From the NCBI GenBank assembly GCA_007134055.1, contig SLLM01000170.1, forward strand, positions 1 to 35,791: DNA of 35,791 nt. Direction: 5' to 3'. The notes under the pieces were generated by a model. The model worked only from the letters and a program-made list of their open reading frames with translations, ran no database searches and was not told the DNA's origin. Shown one piece after another: positions 478 through 32,803 of this stretch (position 1 is the stretch's first letter; every line of letters begins with the position of its first letter). Position numbers and translations under genes: made by a program. Source of the stretch: Ectothiorhodospiraceae bacterium (GTDB lineage Bacteria > Pseudomonadota > Gammaproteobacteria > Nitrococcales > Aquisalimonadaceae).

Positions 478-568
478 TTCCATGTTGACCTATTGATGGT
501 GCGTGCGCCGCCAGGCCTGCACGTTTGGCCCCCCCGGAGGGTGGCGCCGTGCCGTTCGGGAGGTTCGT

Positions 569-3523
569 GTGCTCGATACCATTCGTCAGCTCTTCTCATC
601 CACCCGAACCTCCACGCCGCACTCCCACGCCGACCGGCTGCCCCGTTTCGAGGATCACGAGACGCAGGAGAAGCGCTACACCACCTGCTACATGTGCGCC
701 TGTCGCTGTGGAATCGAGGTCACCGTGGAGCACGAGCGGATCCGCTTCATTCAGGGGAACCGCAATCACCCCGTCAATCGCGGGGTGCTGTGCGCCAAGG
801 GCAACGCCGGCATCATGAAGCAGCTCGCCCCGGGCAAGCTGCGCAATCCCCTGATGCGCAAACCGGGGACGGAGCGTGGCGCCGGCGAGTTCGTGGAAAT
901 CGAGTGGGACGAGGCGCTGGAGTTGCTGGCAACGCGACTGCGCGCGATCCGGGCCACGGATCCGAAGAAGCTCGCCTTCTTCACTGGCCGCGACCAGATG
1001 CAGGCATTGACCGGGCTATGGGCACAGCAGTTCGGCACGATCAACTGGGCGGCCCACGGCGGGTTCTGCTCGGTCAACATGGCCGCGGGCGGTCTGTACA
1101 GCGTGGGACAGTCGTTCTGGGAGTTCGGTGACCCGGACTGGGAGCGCACCAGGTATTTTATCCTCTGGGGGGTCGCCGAGGACCACGCGTCGAATCCAAT
1201 CAAGATCGGGATCGACACCCTGAAGCGGCGCGGCGGCAAGTTCGTTGCCATCAACCCGGTGCGTACGGGCTATCAGGCGGTGGCCGACGAGTGGGTAGCC
1301 ATTCGTCCCGGGACCGACGGCATGCTCGCACTCTCCCTCTGCCATGTACTGCTCTCCCGCGACCTGGTGGACTGGGAGTATCTGGGCCGCTACACCAACG
1401 CCCCGTTCCTCGTCCTGGACGATCCCGGCCAGTCCGACGACGGCATGATCGCCCGGGACGACGACGGCAATCCGCTGGTGTGGGACGCGGCCAGCGGTGC
1501 GTTCGCCAACGGCATGACGCCGGGCGTCGAGGCGGCGCTGTTCGGCGCATATACGCTTCCCGACGGGCGCGGCTGTCGCACGGTGATGACCCACATCGCC
1601 GCAAAGTACCTGGACGAGCGGTACGCCCCGGCCCGGGCGGCTGAGGTGTGTGGCGTTCCCGCGGAGACCATCGAGCGGCTGGCGCTGGAGATGGCGCACG
1701 TGGCCTTCCGGGAGACCATCGAGGTCGAATGCGAATGGACGGACTGGGCCGGGCGCAGGCATGAGCGGTTCATCGGGCGACCGGTCTCCATGCACGCGAT
1801 GCGCGGGATCTCGGCACACTCAAACGGTTTCCAGACGTGCCGCGCCCTCCATCTCCTGCAGGTGTTCCTCGGCACCATCGACGTGCCGGGCGGACACCGG
1901 GCCAAGCCCCCGTTCCCCCGGCATACGCCGCCGGCGATCCGCCCGGCGAAGGACACGGCTCCGGACACCCCCCTGTCCGCCCCGCCCCTGGGTTTCCCCA
2001 CGGCGCCGGAGGATCTGGTAGTCGATGATTCGGGACAGCCGCTGCGCATCGACAAGGCATATTCCTGGGAGGCGCCGCTGGCCAACCACGGGCTGATGCA
2101 CATGGTGATCACCAACGCGGTGAATGGTGATCCGTATCCCATCGATACCCTGATCCTGTTCATGGCCAACATGGCCTGGAACTCCACCATGAACACGGGG
2201 AGCGTGCAGGACATGCTGCGGGCCAGGGACGAACAGGGTGAGTACAAGCTGCCGTTCCTGGTGGTCGTGGATGCCTTTCACTCCGAAACCGTGAATTTCG
2301 CCGATCTGGTGCTTCCGGACACCACATACCTGGAACGCCACGATGCCATCTCGGTACTGGATCGGCCGATCTCCGAGCCGGATGCGGTGTGCGACGCGAT
2401 TCGCGCCCCCGTTCTGCAGCCGGATCGTAACGTGCGGCCCTGGCAGGAGGTGCTGGTGGACCTGGCCGGTCGCCTGAGGTTTCCCGCCTTCGTCGACGAG
2501 GACGGCGAGCCCCGGTACAGCGGCTATACCGACTTCATCGCCCGCTGGGAGAAGGCGCCGGGAATCGGCTTCCTCGCCGGCTGGCGGGGCGCGGATGGCG
2601 AGACACCGATCCGCGGCGCGCCCAACCCGGACCAGTGGCAGCGCTACATCGACAATGAGTGCTTCTTCCGCCATGAGCTGCCCGCGCACATGCGCTTCTA
2701 CCGCTTTGCCAACCGCGACTACCTCCGCTGGGCCAGGGATGTCGGTTTCAATCCGGTGGACGACCCCATCGTGATGGAACTCTACAGCGAACCATTGCAG
2801 CGTTTCCGGCAGGCAGGACTCGGGCTCTATGACGGCCCCCTGCCGCCCGAGGGCGTTGACCGGGAGCGTCTGGTTGCCTACTTCGATCCGCTGCCGGATT
2901 ACTACCAGCCGCTGGAGGAAAGGTACGTCGACCCTGATACCTACCCCTTCCATGCGGTAACGCAGCGGCCGATGCACATGTATCACTCGTGGGATTCCCA
3001 GAACAGCTGGCTGCGGCAGATCACCGCACAGAACGTTCTCTTCATGAACCGGGCCCGCGCCGAGACGCTGGGCATCGAGGACCAGGGCTGGGTATGGGTG
3101 GAATCGCGCAACGGGCGGATCCGCGCCCAGGTGAGCCTGATGGAAGGATGCGAGCCGAACACGGTCTGGACCTGGAATGCCATCGGCAAGCAGGCTGGGG
3201 CCTGGGGACTGGACCCGGAGGCACCGGAAGCCAGGCGCGCGTTTCTCGTGAACCACCTGATCAGCGAGCTGCTTCCTCCGGACGGTGAGCGCCGGCAACT
3301 GACCAATTCGGATCCGGTGACGGGCCAGGCCGCGTGGTACGACCTGCGGGTCCGGATCTCGCCCTGCAGCGCGGAAGAGGCCGGCAGCAGCTATCCCGAG
3401 TTCCCGCAGATCAGGCCCCTCCCGGGGCAGGAGCCATCGCCGCCACAGGTGCGTTATGCCAGCCATGAGCCGGTACGGATGCACCGCAAGATCCTGGATA
3501 TCCTGACGAGGAAGGCGCCATGA
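569..3523 (+). CDS. soeA: Molybdopterin oxidoreductase, SoeA-like sulfite dehydrogenase (quinone) catalytic subunit, about 984 aa
   Basis: N-terminal [4Fe-4S] motif YTTCYMCACRCG...GVLCAKG, molybdopterin-binding domains; no Tat RR signal at the N-terminus, consistent with a cytoplasmic enzyme; followed by FeS and NrfD/DmsC-like subunits. GTG start at 569 preceded by GGGAGG; ORF track start is 503. Confidence 0.85.
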   Translation: MLDTIRQLFSSTRTSTPHSHADRLPRFEDHETQEKRYTTCYMCACRCGIEVTVEHERIRFIQGNRNHPVNRGVLCAKGNAGIMKQLAPGKLRNPLMRKPGTERGAGEFVEIEWDEALELLATRLRAIRATDPKKLAFFTGRDQMQALTGLWAQQFGTINWAAHGGFCSVNMAAGGLYSVGQSFWEFGDPDWERTRYFILWGVAEDHASNPIKIGIDTLKRRGGKFVAINPVRTGYQAVADEWVAIRPGTDGMLALSLCHVLLSRDLVDWEYLGRYTNAPFLVLDDPGQSDDGMIARDDDGNPLVWDAASGAFANGMTPGVEAALFGAYTLPDGRGCRTVMTHIAAKYLDERYAPARAAEVCGVPAETIERLALEMAHVAFRETIEVECEWTDWAGRRHERFIGRPVSMHAMRGISAHSNGFQTCRALHLLQVFLGTIDVPGGHRAKPPFPRHTPPAIRPAKDTAPDTPLSAPPLGFPTAPEDLVVDDSGQPLRIDKAYSWEAPLANHGLMHMVITNAVNGDPYPIDTLILFMANMAWNSTMNTGSVQDMLRARDEQGEYKLPFLVVVDAFHSETVNFADLVLPDTTYLERHDAISVLDRPISEPDAVCDAIRAPVLQPDRNVRPWQEVLVDLAGRLRFPAFVDEDGEPRYSGYTDFIARWEKAPGIGFLAGWRGADGETPIRGAPNPDQWQRYIDNECFFRHELPAHMRFYRFANRDYLRWARDVGFNPVDDPIVMELYSEPLQRFRQAGLGLYDGPLPPEGVDRERLVAYFDPLPDYYQPLEERYVDPDTYPFHAVTQRPMHMYHSWDSQNSWLRQITAQNVLFMNRARAETLGIEDQGWVWVESRNGRIRAQVSLMEGCEPNTVWTWNAIGKQAGAWGLDPEAPEARRAFLVNHLISELLPPDGERRQLTNSDPVTGQAAWYDLRVRISPCSAEEAGSSYPEFPQIRPLPGQEPSPPQVRYASHEPVRMHRKILDILTRKAP

Positions 3524-4218
3524 AACTGGGTCTGGTGATCGACATGGATACCTGCGTGGGCTGCCAGGCCTGCGTGGTGGCGTGCAAGCAGTGGAACACC
3601 TCCGGGACGCTGGGGCCACTCACCGACTACACCCCCTACGGGGAATCGCCGGGTGGAGTGGCGTTCAACCGCGTGCGCAGTTACGAGGTGGACGTCTTCC
3701 CCCACAGCAAGACGGTGAACATGCCCATGTCGTGCATGCACTGCGAGACGGCCGAGTGCGTCACGGTCTGCCCGACAGGGGCTTCGTACAAGCGGGAGGA
3801 GGACGGCATCGTGCTGGTGGACCAGGACAAGTGCATGGGGTGCAACCTCTGCGCCTGGGCCTGCCCCTACGGTGCCCGTGAACTCGACGAGGCGGAGGGG
3901 ACGATGAAAAAGTGTACCCTCTGCGTCGACCGGATCTATGACGAGTTGTTGCCGGAAGCGGACCGGCAGCCGGCCTGTGTGCTGACCTGCCCCACGGGCG
4001 CGCGCCACTTCGGTGACTTCGACGACCCGGAATCAGGGGTCAGCCGCCTGGTGCGCGAGCGTGGCGGACAGCAGTCGCTGCCGGAGATGGGTTACAACCC
4101 GGTCAACCGGTATCTGCCGCCGCGGAACCGACCGCATGCCGATCAGCATCGCGGCAGCGCGCCGGAGGGCCTTGCCGAGCGGCTGAAGGGCTGGCTGGGC
4201 TTGAGTGTCAATCGTTGA
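3520..4218 (+). CDS. soeB: 4Fe-4S ferredoxin-type electron transfer subunit, SoeB-like
   Basis: Four Cys clusters (CVGCQACVVAC, CMHCETAECVTVC, CMGCNLCAWAC, CTLCVDRIYDELLPEADRQPACVLTC); ATGA overlap with soeA stop. Confidence 0.88.
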   Translation: MKLGLVIDMDTCVGCQACVVACKQWNTSGTLGPLTDYTPYGESPGGVAFNRVRSYEVDVFPHSKTVNMPMSCMHCETAECVTVCPTGASYKREEDGIVLVDQDKCMGCNLCAWACPYGARELDEAEGTMKKCTLCVDRIYDELLPEADRQPACVLTCPTGARHFGDFDDPESGVSRLVRERGGQQSLPEMGYNPVNRYLPPRNRPHADQHRGSAPEGLAERLKGWLGLSVNR

Positions 4219-4283
4219 CCGCTCGCCGCCGGCGCCACGGCGACGGCAGCGGGATTTCAGACCATTTCAGGGGGAGGGGGCCG

Positions 4284-5225
4284 ATGCATCCGGCGCTGTC
4301 TGTCATAGTCTTTACCGTTGCCTCTGGCGCCGGGTTCGGGCTGGTGGCCTTGACGCTGGCCCTGGAGCTGCTGGGTGGCGTGCCGGGACTCGGGGCCACG
4401 GGCGTTTTGTGGGCCGTGGCGGGGGGCGTGGTGCTGGCGACGGCGGGGCTGCTGGCGTCAACGCTGCACCTCGCCAACCCGAAGAATGCCTGGCGGGCAT
4501 TCATGCGCTTTCGCAGCTCCTGGCTTTCGCGGGAAGCGGTATTCTCGGTGCTCTTCTACCCCGTGATCCTGCTCTATTTCGCCGGCATGTGGACCCATGG
4601 CGCCACGGACGCCACTGCGTGGGTGTACATTGCGGCTGTGGCCGCCCTGCTGCTCGCGGCAGCGACTGTGTTCACGACCGGGATGATCTACGCCAGCCTG
4701 CGTACCATACCCCAGTGGCACAGTGCGCTGGTGCCGGCGAACTACCTGCTTCTCGGCGTTGCGTCCGGCGCCGTGCTACTGACGGGGATTGTCGCAATCA
4801 GCGGTGGCGGCACGGAAGCGGTGGGGCAACTGGCGGTGACGCTGGTCGTGCTCGGCGGCTTCGGCAAGGCGGTCTACTACTACTGGATCGGCCAGCCCCA
4901 GGGGCCGAGCATCAACACAGCGCTCGGAATGACCCGAGGGCGGGTACGGTTGCTGGAATCCGGCCAGAGCGCGCCGACCTTCCTGGACCGGGAATTCGGG
5001 TACCAGGCGCCGGCCTCGCAGCTACGCTGGCTGCGGGCCGTCGTGTACCTTGCGGGTTTCCTGCTGCCGCTGGGCATGCTTCTCGGCCTGCTGGCGACGG
5101 GGCAGGCGGCATATGCGGTGCTGGCGGTGGCGAGCATGCTTGGCGGGCTGCTGGTCGAGCGCTGGCTGTTCTTCGCCGAGGCCCGCCACACCGTGAACCT
5201 GTTCTATGGTCGTCAGCGTTGCTGA
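4284..5225 (+). CDS. soeC: DmsC/NrfD-like membrane anchor, SoeC-like
   Basis: Multi-TM protein; MHPALSVIVFTVASGAGFGLVALTLALEL, LHLANPKNAWRAFMRFRSSWLSREA typical of DmsC-type subunits; start 4284 has GGGGAGGGGG RBS. Confidence 0.85.
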   Translation: MHPALSVIVFTVASGAGFGLVALTLALELLGGVPGLGATGVLWAVAGGVVLATAGLLASTLHLANPKNAWRAFMRFRSSWLSREAVFSVLFYPVILLYFAGMWTHGATDATAWVYIAAVAALLLAAATVFTTGMIYASLRTIPQWHSALVPANYLLLGVASGAVLLTGIVAISGGGTEAVGQLAVTLVVLGGFGKAVYYYWIGQPQGPSINTALGMTRGRVRLLESGQSAPTFLDREFGYQAPASQLRWLRAVVYLAGFLLPLGMLLGLLATGQAAYAVLAVASMLGGLLVERWLFFAEARHTVNLFYGRQRC

Positions 5226-5309: not shown

Positions 5310-7073
5310 ATGATTCGACAACGTCTGCTCCCGTTCCTTGAATGGATGCCGCACGTGGGCAGGCGAGCACTGCGCGCCGATCTCCTGGCGGGGCTGACCG
5401 GCGCGGTGATCGTGCTCCCCCAGGGCGTGGCCTATGCCCTGATCGCCGGGCTGCCTCCCCAGTATGGCCTGTATGCCGCGATCATCATTCCGGTGGTCGC
5501 GGGTCTGTTCGGTTCGTCCCGGCATCTGATCTCCGGCCCCACGGCGGCGTTGTCCATCGTCGTGTTCAGCGTGGTCTCGGGTGTCGTCTCCCCGGACAGC
5601 CCGGAGTTCATTCCCTACGTACTCACCGTCACGTTCCTCGCGGGACTGTTCCAGCTCGGACTGGGGCTGGCCCGGCTCGGGGGGCTGGTCAATTTCATCT
5701 CCCACACCGTGGTGGTCGGGTTCACCACCGGGGCTGCGGTGCTGATCGCCAGTAGCCAGCTGCGGCATTTCTTCGGGCTGGACATGCCCGCCGCCCAGAG
5801 CTTTGTCGCGACCATCGGCCTCTTCGTCCAGACCCTGCCGGGACTCAACCCCTGGGTGGTGCTGGTGGGGATCGTTACCCTGGCTGCGTCCCTGGCGATC
5901 AGCCGCTGGCGCCCGCAGTGGCCGGCGATGCTGCTGGCGATGCTGGTGGGCAGTGTCTTCGCGTGGGCCATCGGCGGAGCAGACCGGGGCATCGCCATGG
6001 TCGGCGCCATGCCCGGGCAGCTGCCGCCGCCAAGTATGCCGATATTTTCCCTGGAGACGTTCCGCCAGCTTGCCCCGGGCGCACTGGCCGTCGCCATCAT
6101 CGGCCTCATCGAGGCCGTCTCCATCGGTCGCGCCATCGCTGCGAAGTCGGGGCAGCGGATTGACGGCAACCAGGAATTCTTCGGCCAGGGGCTGGCCAAT
6201 GCCGTTGGCAGCTTCCTGTCCTGCTACGTAGGATCCGGTTCCTTCACCCGCTCCGCGGCCAATTACATTGCCGGAGCACGGACACCGCTTTCCGGAGTGT
6301 TCGCGGCCTCCCTGGTGCTGGCCATCCTGCTGCTGGTTCCGGGAATCACCGCCTACCTGCCCATGCCGGCCATGGCCGCGATCGTGTTGCTGATCGCCTG
6401 GCGGCTCGTGGATGTGGGGCAGTGGCGCGCCATCATGGGTGTCAGCCGGCAGGAAACGGTGATCCTCCTGGTCACCTTCGCATCCACACTCATCCTGGCC
6501 CTGGAGTTCGCCATCTACCTGGGTGTGCTGCTCTCGCTGATGATCTACCTGCATCGCACCGCCCACCCGCGAATGGTCCCGGTGGCGCCGATTGCGGACC
6601 GGCCCGGGCAGCCCTACAGGAACGCAGCGAAGCGCGGGCTGTCCGAATGTCCGCAGCTCAAGATCCTGCGCATCGACGGGTCGGTGTTCTTCGGCGCCGT
6701 GGACCACGTGCAGTCGGTGCTCCACGGGCTGTCGGTCAGCGGTTACCGCCATGTCCTGCTGCTGGGGCCGGGGGTCAACTTCATCGACGTTGCCGGTGCG
6801 GAACTCCTGGCCCACGAGGCGCGGCGCTTCCGCGCCCTGGGCGGCGGTCTGTATTTCGCGAGTTTCAAGGATCCCGCGACCGAGTTGCTGCGCAGGCCTG
6901 TCTACCTGCGCGAAATCGGGGAGAACAACTTCTTCCATACCCCGGCCGAGGCGGTGGCGAGCATCTTCCAGACCCTGGACCGGCCGACCTGCGAACAGTG
7001 CACGGCGCGGATATTCAACCAGTGCGCGGCAGTGCCGCCGCCGGGCACCTCGGCGGCGACAGGGACGGGGTGA
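5310..7073 (+). CDS. SulP family inorganic anion (sulfate) transporter with C-terminal STAS domain
   Basis: LADLLAGLTGAVIVLPQGVAYALIAGLPPQYGLYAAI signature; C-terminal STAS-like region. Confidence 0.92.
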   Translation: MIRQRLLPFLEWMPHVGRRALRADLLAGLTGAVIVLPQGVAYALIAGLPPQYGLYAAIIIPVVAGLFGSSRHLISGPTAALSIVVFSVVSGVVSPDSPEFIPYVLTVTFLAGLFQLGLGLARLGGLVNFISHTVVVGFTTGAAVLIASSQLRHFFGLDMPAAQSFVATIGLFVQTLPGLNPWVVLVGIVTLAASLAISRWRPQWPAMLLAMLVGSVFAWAIGGADRGIAMVGAMPGQLPPPSMPIFSLETFRQLAPGALAVAIIGLIEAVSIGRAIAAKSGQRIDGNQEFFGQGLANAVGSFLSCYVGSGSFTRSAANYIAGARTPLSGVFAASLVLAILLLVPGITAYLPMPAMAAIVLLIAWRLVDVGQWRAIMGVSRQETVILLVTFASTLILALEFAIYLGVLLSLMIYLHRTAHPRMVPVAPIADRPGQPYRNAAKRGLSECPQLKILRIDGSVFFGAVDHVQSVLHGLSVSGYRHVLLLGPGVNFIDVAGAELLAHEARRFRALGGGLYFASFKDPATELLRRPVYLREIGENNFFHTPAEAVASIFQTLDRPTCEQCTARIFNQCAAVPPPGTSAATGTG

Positions 7074-7075
7074 GG

Positions 7076-7786
7076 TCAGGGGATGCTCCGTTCCTCGCCA
7101 CAGGCCAGGTTGGCGGGAACGGCCACGTCCATCAGCCTGGGATCGGGTAGCTGGAGCCCGTTCATGATCTCGATGTACTGCTCCCGGGTCTTCCCTGCCA
7201 GGCGCGGGTTGTGGAGACGTTCCTCGCCGATGGTGGAGACGGTCCAGCCCTTATAGTCGTGGGCCGGGTACACCAGCGTGTGGTCACCCAGGGGGAACAG
7301 GCGACCGGTGATGGAATCATGGGATCTGCCGGGATCGCCGCCCTGGAAATCCGTTCGCCCCGTGCCGCGGATCAGCAGCACGTCCCCCGTGAAGACGGCC
7401 CTGGGTGCGCCCGGACTGTCGAGCAGGAAGCTGAAGGACTCGTCGGTGTGTCCCGGCGTATAGAGCGCTTCCAGGGTGATCCCGTCGATGTCCATGCGTT
7501 CGCCGTCATGGACGTGGCGGGAGACGCACTCCGCCCGGGTGAACTCCCCCATGACGGTGACGCACTGCGTCCGCTCCCGCAGGCCGCCCAGGGCGGTGAT
7601 GTGGTCTGCATGGGTGTGGGTGTCGATGGCGGTTACCAGGCGCAGGTCCAGTTCGCGGATCACCCGCAGGTACTGCTCCATGCAGGGTTTCACGGGATCG
7701 ATGAGTACCGCCTCGCGACCGGGGGCCGAGGCGATCAGATAGGTGTAGGTGGAGCTCTCGGTGTCGAAGAACTGGCGAAACAGCAT
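7076..7786 (-). CDS. MBL-fold hydrolase, ETHE1-like persulfide dioxygenase
   Basis: THTHADHITALGGL metal motif, TPGHTDESFSF, GDVLLIRGTGRTDFQGGD, YPAHDYKG typical of ETHE1/PDO family. Confidence 0.87.
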   Translation of the reverse strand: MLFRQFFDTESSTYTYLIASAPGREAVLIDPVKPCMEQYLRVIRELDLRLVTAIDTHTHADHITALGGLRERTQCVTVMGEFTRAECVSRHVHDGERMDIDGITLEALYTPGHTDESFSFLLDSPGAPRAVFTGDVLLIRGTGRTDFQGGDPGRSHDSITGRLFPLGDHTLVYPAHDYKGWTVSTIGEERLHNPRLAGKTREQYIEIMNGLQLPDPRLMDVAVPANLACGEERSIP

Positions 7787-7960
7787 GGCGACCTCGCATC
7801 CGGCATTCTTCCTGACTACTATTCCCTATGAGTCTACGTATAGAACAACTTCGAATATATGGAACGGCGTCGATTGTCCCAGCATGTCATGGGCACAGTG
7901 GCGTGGACTGCGCGCCGTTGTGACATAAGAACGGAAATGGACGTGTGAAGGAGGGCTATC

Positions 7961-8296
7961 ATGCCTGATTCATGGAAATTTGTGGGCGCCGTCCTGACGG
8001 CGGGCCTGTTGTTCACGTCGGTTCATTCCCATGCAGGCGACGGGATCAGCTACCAGCAGGCCTCGCTGCTGGCTGCGACGTGTTTCGCCTGCCACGGTAC
8101 TGATGGCCGCATGGCCGAGGGAATCGACCCCCTCGCCGGTCGCAGTTACCAGGCCCTGCGGGCGACGCTCATGGCCTTCCGGGATGACCAGATACCGAAT
8201 GCCACGGTCATGAACCGCATCGCGGCGGGTTACAGCGAAGAAGAGATCGACGCCATCGCGACATATTTTTCCGGCCTGCCGGCCGGCCGTGAGTGA
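7961..8296 (+). CDS. fccA: Monoheme c-type cytochrome, FccA-like sulfide dehydrogenase cytochrome subunit
   Basis: Signal peptide, single CFACH heme motif, Met ligand region; immediately upstream of fccB. Confidence 0.8.
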   Translation: MPDSWKFVGAVLTAGLLFTSVHSHAGDGISYQQASLLAATCFACHGTDGRMAEGIDPLAGRSYQALRATLMAFRDDQIPNATVMNRIAAGYSEEEIDAIATYFSGLPAGRE

Positions 8297-8311
8297 CGGG
8301 GGGTGAGGGCA

Positions 8312-9634
8312 ATGGACGGAATCAGGATGAATCGCAGGAAACTTTTGCAGCTTCTGGGTGCCGGTGGTGCGCTGGCAGCCGCCGGGCCCCTGGCGAGCGG
8401 AGTCGTGGCCGCCCGTACCCGGGGCCGCGTGGTGGTGATCGGCGGCGGCTTCGGCGGCGCTACCACCGCGAAGTATCTCAAGCGCATGGCTCCGGGCCTG
8501 CAGGTGACGCTGGTCGAACCCGCGTCGCAGTTCTACACCTGCCCCTTCAGCAACCTGTACCTGGGCGGCATGCGCGACATGCAATACATTGCGCATGGCT
8601 ACGATGAACTGCGCAACCGCTACGGGGTGGAGGTGATCCACCAGCTGGCGGAGGACGTGGACGCCGGCTCCCATAGCGTGCGCCTGGCCGGCGGTGAGGA
8701 ACTCGGCTACGACAGGCTGGTGCTCTCCCCGGGCATCGACATCGACTGGGACGCGCTGGAAGGATATGACGAGGAGGTGGCGCAGGACATTCCCCACGCC
8801 TGGAAGGCCGGGGAGCAGACGCGAATCCTGCGCCAGCAGCTGGAGGCGATGGAGGATGGTGGGACCTTCATACTCACCGCCCCGGAGAACCCGTTCCGCT
8901 GCCCACCCGGACCCTATGAGCGGGTAGCGCAGATCGCTCACTATTTCTCCCGGCACAAGCCGCGCTCGAAGATCCTGGTACTGGATGCGAAGGACGGCTT
9001 CTCCAAGCAGGGACTTTTCATGGACGGCTGGAATACCATTTATGGCGACATGATCGAGTGGGTCGGCCGTTCCGATGATGGTGGTATCGTTCGGGTGGAT
9101 GGCCGGGAACGTGCGGTTGAGACGGAGTTCGGCGAAATTCATCACGCTGACGTACTGAACGTGGTGCCGCCGCAGAAGGCCGGGTTCATCGCTGATCGGG
9201 CCGGCGTGACGGACGCCTCCGGCTGGGTCCCCGTGAAGCCGGAGACCTTCGAGTCGCGGGAGGTCGACGACATCTACGTGGTCGGAGACGCGACCATCGC
9301 GGCGCCGATGCCGAAGTCCGGTTTCTGCGCCAATGCCCAGGGGCGTGTCGTGGCTGCCGCCATCGTCGCCTCCCTCGAAGACCGCGAGCCGCTTGCGCCG
9401 GCCTGGACCAACACGTGTTACAGCGTGCTGGCCCCGGATTACGCCGTCTCGGTAGCCGGGGTGTACCGGCTCGTCGACGGGGAGATCGCCGAGGTCGAGG
9501 GCTCCGGCGGGCTCAGCCCCGCTGACGCGGATGCGGATTTCCGCCGTCGGGAAGTGGAGTACGCCATCCGCTGGTACAACGCGATCGCCATGGACGCCTG
9601 GGGCACGACGGGGTTGCCACGTGCGTTGAGCTGA
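8312..9634 (+). CDS. fccB: Flavocytochrome c sulfide dehydrogenase flavoprotein subunit (FCSD/FccB)
   Basis: Tat-like signal NRRKLLQLLGAGGALAAAG, GRVVVIGGGFGGATTAKYLKR FAD motif, YTCPFSNLYLGG and ENPFRCPPGPYERVAQIAHY with the redox cysteines. Confidence 0.92.
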   Translation: MDGIRMNRRKLLQLLGAGGALAAAGPLASGVVAARTRGRVVVIGGGFGGATTAKYLKRMAPGLQVTLVEPASQFYTCPFSNLYLGGMRDMQYIAHGYDELRNRYGVEVIHQLAEDVDAGSHSVRLAGGEELGYDRLVLSPGIDIDWDALEGYDEEVAQDIPHAWKAGEQTRILRQQLEAMEDGGTFILTAPENPFRCPPGPYERVAQIAHYFSRHKPRSKILVLDAKDGFSKQGLFMDGWNTIYGDMIEWVGRSDDGGIVRVDGRERAVETEFGEIHHADVLNVVPPQKAGFIADRAGVTDASGWVPVKPETFESREVDDIYVVGDATIAAPMPKSGFCANAQGRVVAAAIVASLEDREPLAPAWTNTCYSVLAPDYAVSVAGVYRLVDGEIAEVEGSGGLSPADADADFRRREVEYAIRWYNAIAMDAWGTTGLPRALS

Positions 9635-10821: not shown

Positions 10822-10908
10822 TCGGTGACCGTGGTCTGCAACGCCCGGCAGGCAGTGTTGTCTATGATGCGGAACGATGCTGCACATGGCCGACCGAGAG
10901 GAGTGAAC

Positions 10909-11739
10909 ATGTCACAGACCGAGATCAGCAGCGGCAGACTGACCCGTCGGCGGATGCTGCAGATGACGGCTGCCGGAACGCTGGCAGGAGCCGCGTTGCT
11001 CTGGAGTCCGTTCGCCTGGAGCCGCCCTGCGCCCTGGAGCCGCCACCCGGCGATCATGGACCTGCTGGACGGCGCCGAACCGCAGGATGCCGGAATCAAC
11101 CTCGAGCTTCCCAGCGTATCGGAGGACGGCAGCAGCATATCGCTCACCGTGAGCGTGGACAGTGCGATGGAGGATGATGACTACGTGGAGAGCATCCACC
11201 TGTTCGCACCGGACAATCCCAATCCGGAGATCGCGGTTTTCCGTCTCACACCACTGGCTGGCCGGGCCCGGATCAGTACCCGCATTCGCCTGAACGAGTC
11301 GCAGCGGGTGTACGCGCTGGCGAGGATGAACAGCGGCGAGTTCCGGATCACCCACCGGGAGGCCCGGGTGACGGTCAGTGGCTGCCTCGCCGACGACAGC
11401 ACGTACGAGACCAGCGACATCATGCAGACCCGGGTGCGGCTGCCCGGTTCGCTTCTCGCCGGGGAGGCTGCCGAGGTGCTGACAATGATCAATCATCCCA
11501 TGGAAACAGGCTTCCGCGAGGGGCCGGACGGTGACGTGCTGCCCCGCCACATCATCCATTCGTTCCTGGTGAAGCTGGACGGTGAACAGGTGCTGGAAGC
11601 CGATCTCCATCCCTCGATGTCCGCCAATCCGTACCTGCGTTTCCACCTGCGGCCAAGCCAGTCCGGAACCGTCACCATGACCTGGGAGGACGACGAGGGC
11701 CGTACCGCACGCGAGGAAGCCGAGATCAGCGTCGGGTGA
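10909..11739 (+). CDS. Fused SoxY-SoxZ thiosulfate-oxidation carrier-like protein, about 276 aa, Tat signal
   Basis: Tat motif TRRRMLQMTAAGTLAGAALLW; SoxY core IHLFAPDNPNPEIAVFRLTPLAGRARISTRIRLNESQRVYALARM...ARVTVSGC followed by SoxZ core TRVRLPGSLLAGEAAEVLTMINHPMETGFREGPDGDVLPRHIIHSFLVKLDGEQVLEADLHPSMSANPYLRFHL. Confidence 0.9.
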   Translation: MSQTEISSGRLTRRRMLQMTAAGTLAGAALLWSPFAWSRPAPWSRHPAIMDLLDGAEPQDAGINLELPSVSEDGSSISLTVSVDSAMEDDDYVESIHLFAPDNPNPEIAVFRLTPLAGRARISTRIRLNESQRVYALARMNSGEFRITHREARVTVSGCLADDSTYETSDIMQTRVRLPGSLLAGEAAEVLTMINHPMETGFREGPDGDVLPRHIIHSFLVKLDGEQVLEADLHPSMSANPYLRFHLRPSQSGTVTMTWEDDEGRTAREEAEISVG

Positions 11740-12194
11740 TGGGCTGGTTCCTGCTGCTGATCGTGGGCTTCGTGGCCACCATGCTGTTGTTGATACAGCG
11801 CGGCCGCCGGCGCGACGACCCTGACGGTCTGCGGGAGGATCTCCGCCGCCGGCTGCTGCTGGAGCATTCGATCCGCAGGCAGGCGAAGGCCACCAGCATG
11901 AGCCGGGATGACTACGTGGATACCGAAACAGCTCGCCTGGTGGCCGACGTGGAGCAGCGGATCGGGCGCCGTGCGCGCGCCGGCGGAGTGGTGACGGGCC
12001 TGGTGCTGCCCCCCGTACTGGCGCTGCTGGCGTTGCAACTGGGCAGCACCGATTCCATTGCCTGGGGGCTGGCGGTGCTGACGCCATTGGGCCTGGCGGC
12101 GGCATGGTGCGTGTATCGCCTGCTGCTGACGGACCCCGGTGTTCGGGCGGGCACGATGGAACGCCATGTACGGGCACGGCTCGGGCGTCGCTGA
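11739..12194 (+). CDS. Small membrane protein, unknown function, coupled to the SoxYZ fusion gene
   Basis: N-terminal TM (MGWFLLLIVGFVATMLLLIQ), charged central region, C-terminal TM pair; TGATG stop/start overlap with upstream gene (alternative GTG start 11736). Confidence 0.7.
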   Translation: MGWFLLLIVGFVATMLLLIQRGRRRDDPDGLREDLRRRLLLEHSIRRQAKATSMSRDDYVDTETARLVADVEQRIGRRARAGGVVTGLVLPPVLALLALQLGSTDSIAWGLAVLTPLGLAAAWCVYRLLLTDPGVRAGTMERHVRARLGRR

Positions 12195-28132: not shown

Positions 28133-28256
28133 CGCGATGCTTGTCCTGTCTGCGGGTCCTGCACGGTGATAATTGTTGCCGCTCCGTCCGGAACAGACAA
28201 GTTCCGGTCCCTTTCGTGATCGTAAGCAGGTCGGTTATCTGTTGAGCTTGGTGACC

Positions 28257-29507
28257 ATGCGCTACTCGGTATGGCAACTCGTCAAGCAGGGTCTCAGGGG
28301 GCACACGGGCTGGCCGCGCATGTGGCGTGACCCGCAGCCGAAATCCTCCTATGACGTGGTGATCGTCGGCGGTGGCGGGCACGGTCTGGCCACCGCCTAC
28401 TACCTGGCGCGCGAGCACGGGATCCGCAACGTCGCCGTGCTGGAGAAGGGCTGGATCGGCGGCGGCAACGTCGGTCGCAATACCACCATCATCCGCTCCA
28501 ACTACCTGCTGGGGGCCAACCTGCACTTCTACGAGTACGCCATGAAGCTGTGGGAGGGGTTGGAGCGGGAACTCAATTTCAACACCATGGTGAGCCAGCG
28601 CGGCGTGCTCAACCTGTTCCACTCGGATGCCCAGCGGGATGCCTATGCCCGGCGGGGCAACGCCATGCGTCTTGCCGGAGTGGACGCGGAACTTCTCGAC
28701 GTCGATGGAGTGCGCGCCCTGGTACCGATGCTGGACCTGGACAATGCCCGCTTTCCGGTGCTGGGCGGGCTGCTGCAGCCGCGGGGCGGGACCGTGCGGC
28801 ACGATGCCGTCGCCTGGGGCTACGCCCGGGCGGCGGACGCGCTCGGCGTGGATATCATCCAGAACTGCGAGGTGACGGGGATTCGCCGCGACCAGGGCCG
28901 GGTGACGGGGGTTGATACCACCCGTGGCTTCATGGCTACCCCCAGGGTCGCTGCGGCCGTGGCCGGCCATACGAGCCGGGTCGCCGACATGGCGGGCCTG
29001 CGGCTGCCTGTGGAGAGCCACGTCCTGCAAGCGTTCGTCACCGAGGGTGTCAAGCCGTTGCTGGATACGGTGATGACCTTCGGCGCCGGGCATTTCTACG
29101 TCAGCCAGTCGGACAAGGGCGGGCTGGTATTCGGCGGCGACCTGGACGGCTACAACTCCTATGCCCAGCGTGGCAATCTGCCGGCCATGGAGGATGTCAT
29201 GGCCGGGGGCATGGCGGTACTGCCGGTGATGGGCCGCCTGCGGGTCCTGCGGCAATGGGGGGGCGTGGTGGATATGACCATGGATGGCAGCCCCATCATT
29301 ACCTGCACCGATGTGCCCGGTTTCTATCTCAACGGCGGCTGGTGCTATGGCGGATTCAAGGCTACCCCCGCTTCGGGCTGGTGCTTCGCCCACACCATCG
29401 CCCGGGACGAGCCCCACCCGCTGTCCGCCGCCTTTACCATCGACCGGTTCCACGAAGGTCGCCTGCTGGATGAAAAGGGAGTGGGGCCGAATCCATGGAT
29501 ACAGTGA
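28257..29507 (+). CDS. soxB: Sarcosine oxidase beta subunit
   Basis: YDVVIVGGGGHGLATAYYLAREHGIRNVAVLEKGWIGGGNVGRNTTIIRSNYL; C-terminal GGWCYGGFKATPASGWCFAH. Confidence 0.93.
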   Translation: MRYSVWQLVKQGLRGHTGWPRMWRDPQPKSSYDVVIVGGGGHGLATAYYLAREHGIRNVAVLEKGWIGGGNVGRNTTIIRSNYLLGANLHFYEYAMKLWEGLERELNFNTMVSQRGVLNLFHSDAQRDAYARRGNAMRLAGVDAELLDVDGVRALVPMLDLDNARFPVLGGLLQPRGGTVRHDAVAWGYARAADALGVDIIQNCEVTGIRRDQGRVTGVDTTRGFMATPRVAAAVAGHTSRVADMAGLRLPVESHVLQAFVTEGVKPLLDTVMTFGAGHFYVSQSDKGGLVFGGDLDGYNSYAQRGNLPAMEDVMAGGMAVLPVMGRLRVLRQWGGVVDMTMDGSPIITCTDVPGFYLNGGWCYGGFKATPASGWCFAHTIARDEPHPLSAAFTIDRFHEGRLLDEKGVGPNPWIQ

Positions 29508-29546
29508 CCGTGCGCCGGCATTCCGATGCCGGCGGGGAGTACCTGC

Positions 29547-29819
29547 ATGCATCGCATTGACTGTCCCTGGTGCGGTTTGCGCGACGAGGCGGAGTTCCAG
29601 TACCAGGGTGATGCCTCGGTGGCACCGCCGCCCCTGGAGGGCGACATCGACGAGGCGATGGCCGCAGTGTATCTGAGGGAGAACCCGCGCGGCTGGCATC
29701 AGGAATGGTGGCATCACGTCGCCGGATGTCGACAGTACGTCCGCGTGCTGCGGCACACCGGGAGCCATGAGGTCGCCGCCACCGGCTGGCCGGACTCGCG
29801 ACTGGAGCCACCGGCATGA
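29547..29819 (+). CDS. soxD: Sarcosine oxidase delta subunit
   Basis: IDCPWCGLRDEAEFQYQGDA ... EWWHHVAGCRQYVRVLRHT zinc-binding delta family. Confidence 0.92.
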   Translation: MHRIDCPWCGLRDEAEFQYQGDASVAPPPLEGDIDEAMAAVYLRENPRGWHQEWWHHVAGCRQYVRVLRHTGSHEVAATGWPDSRLEPPA

Positions 29820-32803
29820 GCATGGTGCAACCGGATCGCCTGGAGAGCGGGGGCACGATCGATCGTGGTCGCCCGTTGACCGTGAACTTTGACGGTCGCC
29901 CCTATCCCGGTTACGCCGGCGATACCCTCGCCTCCCTGCTGCTGGCCAACGGCGTGCGGCTGGTCGGGCGCAGTTTCAAGTACCATCGCCCCCGGGGCGT
30001 GCTCGGGGCGGGTGCCGAGGAGCCCAATGCCCTGGTGGAGCTTGGCGTCGGCGCGCGGCGGGAACCCAATACCCGCGCGACCCTGGTGGAGGCGGTTGAC
30101 GGTCTGGTGGCCCGTAGCCAGAATCGCTTCCCGTCCCTGCGCCACGATCTGCTCGCGGTCAACGGCCTTGCCCACCGTTTCCTGGTGGCCGGGTTCTATT
30201 ACAAGACCTTCATGTGGCCGGCGTCGTTCTGGGAATCGGTCTACGAGCGGCAGATCCGGCGGGCGGCAGGCCTGGGCCGTGCCGCTGCGGCTCCCGATCC
30301 GGATCGCTATGAACACGTCCATGCCCATGCCGATGTCGTGATTGCCGGTGCCGGGGCCGCCGGTCTGCAGGCGGCGCTTGCCGCAGCCGCAGGCGGCGCC
30401 CGGGTACTGCTGCTGGAAGCGGACCGTTGCCCAGGCGGACGGCTTGCCTGGGAGCGGGCGTCCGTGAACGGGCGCCCGGCCGCGCACTGGGTGGCGGATA
30501 CCGTCTCCCGCCTGGAGGGCATGGACAACGTCCGGATTCTGCGGCGCACGACGCTTACCAGCGTCTATGACCACGGGGTGACCAGTGCTCTGGAGCAGGT
30601 CGCCGGCGACCCTGCCGGCAGCGACCCCGCTCTGCCGCGGCAGCGGCTGTGGATCATTCGCGGCCGGCGGCTCATCGTGGCCAGCGGGGCACTCGAGAGA
30701 CCGCTGGTGTTCGATGACAACGATCGGCCCGGGGTCATGCTGGCCGCCGCAGTGCGCAGCTATGTCAATCGCTACGCGGTAGCCCCGGGCCGGAGTTTCC
30801 TGGTAGCGACCACCGGCGACGATGCCTACCGTACCGCGTTCGATCTGCAGGATGCCGGGCGCACGGTGGTGGCGGTGGCGGATGCCCGGCCCCACGCCGG
30901 AGCCATGGCGGAAGCGGCCCGGGAGCGCGGTATCCGGGTGGTCAACGATGCCCTGCCGGCGCGTGCCCTGGGTCGGTTGCAGCTTCGTGGTGTTCGCCTG
31001 CAGAACGGCAATGGTGCGCCGCTGGAGGAGTTGGCCTGCGACTGCCTCGCGGTCTCCGGTGGCTTCAGTCCGGATCTGACACTCAGCACCCAGATGGGAG
31101 AGCGCCCGGTCTGGAGTGAAACCCTGGGTTGCTTCCTGCCGCCGCCGACGACGGATCAGCCCGTGGAGGTGGTCGGTGCCGCCGCCGGTGTGCTCGAACT
31201 GCAGGCGGCGTTCTCCGGGGCTGTGGATGCCGGTGCCCGCGCCGCTGCGGCCGTGGGCTACCCGGTGCCCGCGGACATGCCTCCCGCGACCGCCGGCAGC
31301 AGCGCGCCATCGGATGCGCCAGCGTTGCCGGTTCGCTGTCCGGGACGGGGCAAGGCCTTCGTGGACTTCCAGAACGATGTCACCGCCGACGACGTGCGCC
31401 TGGCCAACCAGGAAGGGTTCGCCAGCGTGGAGCACCTGAAACGCTACACCACCCTGGGCATGGGGACGGACCAGGGCAAGACCTCCGGCGTCAATGGCCT
31501 GCTGCTGCTTGCCCGGGAGCAGGGGCGGCCCCCGGAGCAAGTGGGCACCACACGGTTCCGGCCGCCGGCGGTACCGGTTGCGGTCGGCGCCTATGCCGGT
31601 CACCGCACCGGACGTGCGTTCGCGCCCATACGCCGGACGGCAATGGACGGCTGGCACCGGAGAAGCGGTGCGAGCTTCATCGAGGCCGGTCACTGGCTGC
31701 GGCCGAGCTGCTACCCACGAGGAGATGAGGACATCGCCGGGGCTACCTGGCGCGAGGCGCTGGCGGTGCGCACGGGTGTCGGCATCTGCGATGTGTCCAC
31801 CCTCGGCAAGATCGACGTGATGGGACCTGACGCCGCCGAGTTCCTGACCCGGCTCTATATCAATGGTTTCCGCAAGCTTGCGGTGGGCCGGGTCCGCTAC
31901 GGGGCCATGCTGCGGCCGGACGGGCACCTGCTGGATGACGGCACCACATCACGGTTTGCCGAAGACCATTTCGTGACTACCACGACGACGGCCAATGCCG
32001 CCCGGGTTCTGGCACACATGGAGTATCACGCCCAGGTCGCGTGGCCGGACCTCGATGTTGCGGTGTGCTCGGCGACCGAGCAGTGGGCGACCATGGCGGT
32101 TGCCGGCCCGCGCAGCCGGGAGACCCTGCAGCTGGCGTTCCCGGATGCCGACCTCTCCGACGAGGCGTTACCCTTCATGGGTTTTCTGGAACTGGACGGC
32201 GGCGGCTTTCCGCTGCGGGTGTTCCGGATCAGTTTTTCCGGGGAACTGGCCTACGAAGTCAGTGTACCCTGGGGCCATGGCGAGCCTATCTGGTGCCGAA
32301 TCATGGCGGCCGGTGCGCCCTTCGATATAACACCCTACGGTACCGAGGCACTCAGCGTGCTGCGGATCGAAAAGGGACATCCCGCCGGCCCCGAACTGGA
32401 CGGCCGTACCACGGCCGCCGACATCGGCCTGGGGGAGATGTTCGCAAAGCAGAAGACGGGCTTCGTGGGCCGGCTTCTGGCTACCCGGCCCGGTCTCGCG
32501 GATCCGCACAGACCGCGCCTGGTGGGGCTCAGGCCGGTAGATCCGGCGGGCCGCCTTCGCGGGGGTGCCCACCTGGTTGCGGATGCGAAGGGATGCGGCA
32601 TCGAGGACAGCCAGGGCTGGCTCTCCTCCGTCTGCCACAGCCCGCAAGTGGAATCATGGATTGCATTGGGCTTTCTCGCCGACGGTGCCCGTCGCACCGG
32701 CGAGGTGCTGCATGCGGTGTTTCCGCTCCGGGGGGAGACGGTCGCCGTGGAAGTGTGTTCACCGTGTTTCGTGGATCCGGAGGGGAGTCGGCTCCGTGGC
32801 TGA
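29816..32803 (+). CDS. soxA: Sarcosine oxidase alpha subunit
   Basis: N-terminal 2Fe-2S-like fold, ADVVIAGAGAAGLQAALAAAAGGARVLLLEAD, C-terminal GcvT/aminomethyltransferase domain; ATGA overlap with soxD. Confidence 0.94.
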   Translation: MSMVQPDRLESGGTIDRGRPLTVNFDGRPYPGYAGDTLASLLLANGVRLVGRSFKYHRPRGVLGAGAEEPNALVELGVGARREPNTRATLVEAVDGLVARSQNRFPSLRHDLLAVNGLAHRFLVAGFYYKTFMWPASFWESVYERQIRRAAGLGRAAAAPDPDRYEHVHAHADVVIAGAGAAGLQAALAAAAGGARVLLLEADRCPGGRLAWERASVNGRPAAHWVADTVSRLEGMDNVRILRRTTLTSVYDHGVTSALEQVAGDPAGSDPALPRQRLWIIRGRRLIVASGALERPLVFDDNDRPGVMLAAAVRSYVNRYAVAPGRSFLVATTGDDAYRTAFDLQDAGRTVVAVADARPHAGAMAEAARERGIRVVNDALPARALGRLQLRGVRLQNGNGAPLEELACDCLAVSGGFSPDLTLSTQMGERPVWSETLGCFLPPPTTDQPVEVVGAAAGVLELQAAFSGAVDAGARAAAAVGYPVPADMPPATAGSSAPSDAPALPVRCPGRGKAFVDFQNDVTADDVRLANQEGFASVEHLKRYTTLGMGTDQGKTSGVNGLLLLAREQGRPPEQVGTTRFRPPAVPVAVGAYAGHRTGRAFAPIRRTAMDGWHRRSGASFIEAGHWLRPSCYPRGDEDIAGATWREALAVRTGVGICDVSTLGKIDVMGPDAAEFLTRLYINGFRKLAVGRVRYGAMLRPDGHLLDDGTTSRFAEDHFVTTTTTANAARVLAHMEYHAQVAWPDLDVAVCSATEQWATMAVAGPRSRETLQLAFPDADLSDEALPFMGFLELDGGGFPLRVFRISFSGELAYEVSVPWGHGEPIWCRIMAAGAPFDITPYGTEALSVLRIEKGHPAGPELDGRTTAADIGLGEMFAKQKTGFVGRLLATRPGLADPHRPRLVGLRPVDPAGRLRGGAHLVADAKGCGIEDSQGWLSSVCHSPQVESWIALGFLADGARRTGEVLHAVFPLRGETVAVEVCSPCFVDPEGSRLRG

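Follow-up and report, generated by a model that had tools for sequence, protein, structure and literature searches.

The window analysed here, a stretch of 35,791 nucleotides from an Ectothiorhodospiraceae bacterium, encodes a sulfur carrier in which SoxY and SoxZ are joined in a single chain, its gene standing last in a one-strand cluster of the order fccA-fccB-yeeE-soxYZ (Table 1). Judging from sequence and gene neighbourhood, we consider it probable (roughly 60%) that this SoxYZ is a carrier dedicated to the flavocytochrome c sulfide dehydrogenase FccAB and works without Sox enzymes. The preliminary description of this DNA had proposed a stand-alone periplasmic sulfane carrier; as a predicted role, this is still the best genomic reading, sharpened here to a carrier dedicated to FccAB.

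Table 1. Features of the sulfur gene cluster and of the fused carrier in the window.
Feature	Positions	Strand	Support
soeABC-like molybdenum oxidoreductase	503..5225 (A 503-3523, B 3520-4218, C 4215-5225)	+	PF00384/PF04879/PF01568, Fer4 domains, DmsC anchor PF04976
SulP-family permease with STAS domain	5310..7073	+	TIGR00815 393.6 bits, above cut-off
Persulfide dioxygenase, ETHE1 type	7076..7786	-	Matches PDB 4ysb, 5ve3, 4chl
fccA, one-heme c-type cytochrome subunit, 111 aa	7961..8296	+	PF13442
fccB, flavoprotein of flavocytochrome c sulfide dehydrogenase (first ATG 8312)	8303..9634	+	PF21706 and PF09242; PDB 5n1t, 1fcd
yeeE/tsuA/soxT-family sulfur transporter, 350 aa	9769..10821	+	PF04143 208 bits; closest solved relative TsuA 6leo
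soxYZ fusion gene, 276 aa, Tat-type leader	10909..11739	+	Pfam SoxY and SoxZ, AlphaFold2, Foldseek
Codon of the sole cysteine C159 (SGCL arm)	11383..11385	+	Cys in 62/62 aligned fused homologs
Linker L160-Q173, SoxY to SoxZ	11386..11427	+	Model confidence; Cys-to-conserved-R spacing 14-18 aa
SoxZ domain, residues 181-271	11449..11721	+	PF08770 96.6 bits; HPMETG motif conserved

The soxYZ reading frame opens with the ATG at 10909 and its stop ends at 11739, giving 276 residues; an alternative in-frame GTG start is possible at 10825, the Tat-type leader TRRRMLQM lying after the ATG. Pfam profile searches recognize SoxY at residues 58-159 (PF13501, 105 bits) and SoxZ at residues 181-271 (PF08770, 96.6 bits), in agreement with the fusion first proposed from the bare sequence, and the linker LADDSTYETSDIMQ reads as given there. 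The translation from the ATG contains a single cysteine, C159 in SGCL, as had also been claimed. That this residue had moved to an internal position is correct only as to its being internal: it was not relocated within SoxY, since it falls in the very alignment column of the last Cys of Paracoccus SoxY (PDB 2ox5_Y, which ends GGC), after which the chain runs on through LADDSTYETSDIMQ into SoxZ, whereas canonical SoxY ends in GG. By alignment, the predicted substrate cysteine keeps its place within SoxY and is made internal by the fusion.

The arm cysteine, whose conservation the preliminary description had singled out as a check, is present in 62 of 62 fused proteins of an alignment that includes three quinoprotein-type sequences, and it is normally the sole cysteine of the mature protein. 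Across the aligned homologs, the next conserved basic residue (R) follows it after 14-18 residues, and the HPMETG motif of the SoxZ half is conserved. A frameshift or merger of two genes, raised earlier as a possible source of error, is ruled out because the relatives at the fcc-type loci retrieved are all single-chain, in independent assemblies and with nearly equal linker length; the fusion is genuine and is due neither to chance nor to assembly. In Methylonatrum and its sister genomes (L008-L010), the leader of the fused carrier seems by eye to be of the Sec rather than the Tat type, which the fusion might permit, SoxZ no longer needing to hitchhike. A search of a phage collection returned no match. 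The soxYZ stop is overlapped by a 152-aa membrane-protein-like reading frame of no clear family (11736-12194, plus strand), which we rejected as an operon member because it is absent from all homologous loci.

An AlphaFold2 model of the mature protein has a mean pLDDT of 93.4 and a pTM of 0.90, and its sole weak block, mature residues 121-130 (mean pLDDT 54), starts at C159. In Foldseek comparisons with the Paracoccus pantotrophus SoxYZ structures (2ox5/2oxg/2oxh), the SoxZ half matches the SoxZ chains at TMt 0.91-0.94 and the SoxY half the SoxY chains at 0.85-0.87. Both domains are present, together with an invariant cysteine on what is predicted to be a flexible arm, and sequence and model thus place the protein in the SoxYZ carrier superfamily.

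The neighbouring genes fit sulfide oxidation and sulfur uptake in their conserved residues. FccB has the FCSD domains and the expected catalytic and flavin cysteines, which place it in that group; Cys 80, 200 and 372, invariant among operon homologs, presumably correspond, given the alignment offset, to Cys42, Cys161 and Cys337 of 1fcd. FccA has exactly one CXXCH in the window copy and in 61 of 61 operon homologs, and Cys 28, 102 and 310 of YeeE are likewise invariant. The soeABC-like genes, sulP and the ETHE1-type persulfide dioxygenase gene adjoin the cluster in the window and in one genome of the same genus. The molybdenum oxidoreductase is a candidate Soe and the SulP permease a probable sulfate exporter, and the adjacency of soeABC is confined to the window's genus among the family loci examined. 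Persulfide dioxygenase was rejected as a conserved operon partner: orthologs occur in 3 of 61 carrier-genome handles, namely in the window's own genus and one alphaproteobacterial MAG.

Relatives of the fused carrier occur in 9 of the 14 family genomes, and a genome-wide scan recovered 80 loci, 65 with fcc-type fusions and 10 with a divergent alphaproteobacterial fused group that has a GACE arm. Among the 65 fcc-type loci, 56 have exactly the order fccA-fccB-yeeE-soxYZ and 5 have fccA-fccB-soxYZ without yeeE (Methylonatrum, two sister genomes and two Bauldia loci); fccB-yeeE-soxYZ at a contig end accounts for 2, yeeE alone beside soxYZ, also at a contig end, for 1, and neither fcc nor yeeE is found at 1. 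By these counts FccB is the most constant partner, and YeeE is not universal as a hand-over target. The cluster spans three phyla, with hosts in Halomonadaceae, Oceanospirillaceae, Ectothiorhodospiraceae, Marinobacteraceae, several alphaproteobacterial groups, Pusillimonas, Opitutales/Puniceicoccaceae and Kiritimatiellia. One clade member (L018/L033, genome G012) has no fcc beside the carrier, which adjoins a protein with two rhodanese domains. We propose a group of Fcc-associated single-chain SoxYZ proteins, recognized by the fusion, a GC-type arm with a single Cys and a place beside fccAB, to which the window's protein belongs.

In the mechanism that we suggest, sulfide would be oxidized in the periplasm by FccAB, and the sulfane sulfur would move to C159, so that a flexible loop fixed at either end would bear a persulfide or short polysulfide. 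From SoxYZ the sulfur would then pass, in the likeliest case, to cysteines of the YeeE-family importer where one is present, and in the window's organism the adjacent persulfide dioxygenase, SoeABC and SulP could complete the oxidation to sulfate. That SoxYZ accepts sulfur from FccAB, that YeeE receives it and that oxidation is completed in the cytoplasm are steps that we infer. For canonical SoxYZ, persulfurated species with a persulfide or polysulfide on the arm are known (PMC5336275), and SoxT/YeeE proteins have been proposed to relay SoxY-bound sulfur through their cysteines (PMC11582611). The wider proposal, that these genes form a SoxB-independent sulfide-oxidation module over three phyla in which FccAB loads SoxYZ for the YeeE importer and does not simply release polysulfide, is more tentative and falls somewhat short of even odds; as a counterpoint, FCSD has been reported to release polysulfide as its final product (reviewed in PMC9774590). 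The scarcity of persulfide dioxygenase (3 of 61 handles) and the locus L018 of G012, with no adjacent fcc, also count against the FccAB-carrier reading.

The alternative that survives best, though an unlikely one, is a periplasmic thiosulfate- or sulfite-binding protein that brings thiosulfate to YeeE, or forms a sulfite conjugate to assist SoeABC, and receives no sulfur from FccAB. YeeE is a relative of TsuA, soeABC adjoins the cluster in the window, and a published title connects SoeABC-dependent sulfite oxidation in Allochromatium with SoxYZ (Dahl et al. 2013), all of which would suit such a role; against it, the carrier persists beside fccAB at the yeeE-less loci of Methylonatrum, its two sister genomes and Bauldia, among the family loci examined soeABC adjoins the cluster in no genus but the window's, there is no SoxAX for thiosulfate conjugation, and FccB, not the transporter, is the most constant neighbour. 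We give somewhat less credence still to an accessory or protective partner of FccAB, acting in folding, re-reduction or regulation and using its Cys for redox chemistry and not for sulfur transport. This would account for the tight linkage of soxYZ to fccAB independently of yeeE, and FccB of Thioalkalivibrio paradoxus has been solved with the small periplasmic copper protein CopC (5n1t); the retention of both the SoxY and SoxZ cores, the invariant arm Cys and the constrained linker length are, on the other hand, as for a substrate carrier.

That the protein instead serves as the ordinary carrier for a thiosulfate-oxidizing Sox system whose genes lie elsewhere in the genome is highly improbable: its SoxZ half does pass the true-SoxZ model (88.7 bits, cut-off 76), but its SoxY half stays under the true-SoxY cut-off (97.3 versus 125 bits), and the Sox enzymes are missing from the genomes searched. 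Profile searches of the 14 family genomes, the window's own included, returned no SoxB match at all and no SoxA over cut-off, so that the complete sox genes envisaged in the preliminary description as a refutation did not appear. The family set includes a same-genus genome rated 100% complete; the window's own genome is an 88%-complete draft, and the absences rest mainly on its relatives. SoxB was likewise over cut-off in 0 of 49 further carrier genomes, the best score being 223.5 bits against a cut-off of 550, and such weak matches are probably related nucleotidases, as the same kind of match also occurs in most control genomes. As a positive control, the search detected SoxB at 725-733 bits in 5 of 54 genomes of the host order, all of them non-carriers, and in 0 of the order's 14 fused-carrier genomes. 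Within the order alone, mutual exclusion of SoxB and the fusion is not significant (hypergeometric ~0.21), and the case rests on the wider set. Some handles share genomes (G014/G063, G009/G050, G017/G077), hence about 60 distinct carrier genomes were tested. A canonical thiosulfate-oxidizing Sox system, that is, soxB and soxA in one genome, was not found. Just two distinct carrier genomes, G017/G077 and G078, gave DsrA scores above the cut-off, and at least one of them is a Halorhodospira MAG (L036); hosts must therefore differ in their downstream route. Elsewhere in the window (28173-32803, plus strand) lies a sarcosine oxidase operon whose beta, delta and alpha subunit genes carry the NCBIfam names soxB, soxD and soxA; they share only their names with the sulfur sox genes, and an annotation mix-up is possible.

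Equally improbable is membership in the known quinoprotein-associated SoxYZ fusion (TIGR04557), which is the best NCBIfam match by E-value: the 123 bits are under the cut-off of 140, as are the scores of every clade member tested (102-134 bits), whereas true paralogs in the same taxonomic family reach 229-259, the arm is SGCL in place of GGCSAP, and the neighbours are fcc and yeeE with no quinoprotein. The highest score from a SoxY-only NCBIfam model, TIGR04487 (AACIE arm), is also under its cut-off (118 versus 172 bits), and in the true-SoxY comparison (TIGR04488) the SGCL-linker arm replaces the C-terminal GGCGG. The profile checks suggested at the outset thus match the SoxY and SoxZ Pfam models and leave the quinoprotein fusion model under its cut-off.

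A tree of the SoxY and SoxZ cores resolves the fcc-type fusion as one group (100/100) and the quinoprotein fusion as another (100/100), with unfused alphaproteobacterial proteins on the fcc side. Forcing a single clade gave AU p 0.046 for fcc-type plus quinoprotein fusions and 0.020 for all fused proteins; a first small tree, to which the alphaproteobacterial unfused relatives were added later, had given p 0.607 for a single origin of all fusions. These sequence comparisons provide moderate evidence that the fcc-type and quinoprotein fusions arose separately, and a single event for the fcc-type and alphaproteobacterial GAC-type fusions gave p 0.218. The latter, divergent group (L094-L096, L098-L104; Devosia, Silicimonas, Boseongicola, Sinisalibacter) has several extra cysteines besides its GACE arm and, in most loci, fccA/fccB beside the carrier on the opposite strand. 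A third, independent-looking SoxYZ fusion adjoins a true soxA in another gammaproteobacterium (L183 6248-7979, genome G218) and has a near-canonical SoxY score of 124.2 bits against the cut-off of 125.

Among unfused relatives, Rhizobium and Sinorhizobium plasmids (L188, L189; ~5824-8312) carry soxY-soxZ-fccA-fccB, and the neighbours tested include no recognizable soxA/B. This set shares the enzyme partners of the fused carrier and differs in its two chains, gene order and lack of an adjacent yeeE; the partnership with FccAB is accordingly not tied to fusion. Its SoxY ends NGCR or NGCL, one residue past the Cys, and the fused arm resembles what would result if a SoxY with so short an end were read through into SoxZ. 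The TIGR04487 AACIE protein with its SoxZ, from rhizobia and Methylobacterium, resembles the present carrier in its non-canonical arm and an adjacent FAD-dependent oxidoreductase matching FccB; it is unfused and flanked by soxX and soxA, and the rhizobial genes sit between the FccB relative and soxA. This is another hint of an association between FccB-like enzymes and non-canonical SoxY arms.

With the canonical SoxY/SoxZ heterodimer (TIGR04488/TIGR04490; 2ox5, 4uwq), the fused carrier shares both folds, the arm-Cys column and a Tat-type leader; it differs in being one chain, with SGCL and a linker instead of a GGCGG end, and in standing beside fccAB-yeeE without SoxAX, SoxB or SoxCD partners. 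SoxY-SoxZ fusions have been published before (PMC11237559, PMC11582611), so the preliminary description was right that fusion itself is not new, and the present one is separate from the quinoprotein fusion. The quinoprotein- and methanol-associated SoxYZ-S2/S4 (PMC11237559) are likewise single chains with an internal Cys, and are set apart by the GGCSAP arm, a PQQ-dehydrogenase/SoxH context and a separate fusion on the tree. The main SoxY survey in that study dropped sequences without a GGC motif, by which SGC-arm members would be lost. SoxT/TsuA transport (PMC11582611) offers a YeeE-family importer with three conserved Cys and a proposed SoxYZ-to-SoxT transfer, in organisms with soxXAB, which the present cluster lacks. 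The open-access literature searched held no description of an FccAB-YeeE-linked fused SoxYZ without SoxB.

Closest in physiology, and in keeping with the proposed role, is heterotrophic sulfide oxidation by FccAB and persulfide dioxygenase in Halomonas. PMC8014003 reports sulfide oxidation by strains of the Halomonas 'desiderata group', fccAB without sqr in 6 of the 14 strains studied, and weaker oxidation by FccAB-only strains than by those with sqr. The enzymes and several species are shared, some of these species carrying the operon described here (L043, L054, L059). That study covers fccAB, sqr, pdo and tsdA and reports no SoxYZ, which in the methods passages located figures solely as a query; relative to it, the carrier gene adds a component not reported there for Halomonas FccAB sulfide oxidation.

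Glutathione polysulfide, PmpAB, rhodanese and TusA are among the routes put forward, as yet without agreement, for bringing sulfane sulfur from periplasmic flavocytochrome c into the cytoplasm (PMC12345210), and a carrier encoded beside both enzyme and importer makes the hand-over directly testable. Annotators may easily label the gene a quinoprotein-associated carrier or take it, wrongly, as evidence of thiosulfate-oxidizing Sox. If the wider proposal is true, fixing both ends of the arm would adapt the carrier specifically to a two-partner relay and exclude Sox enzymes. The hosts include culturable heterotrophs without Sox enzymes, and the cluster suggests an overlooked bacterial way of handling sulfur from sulfide.
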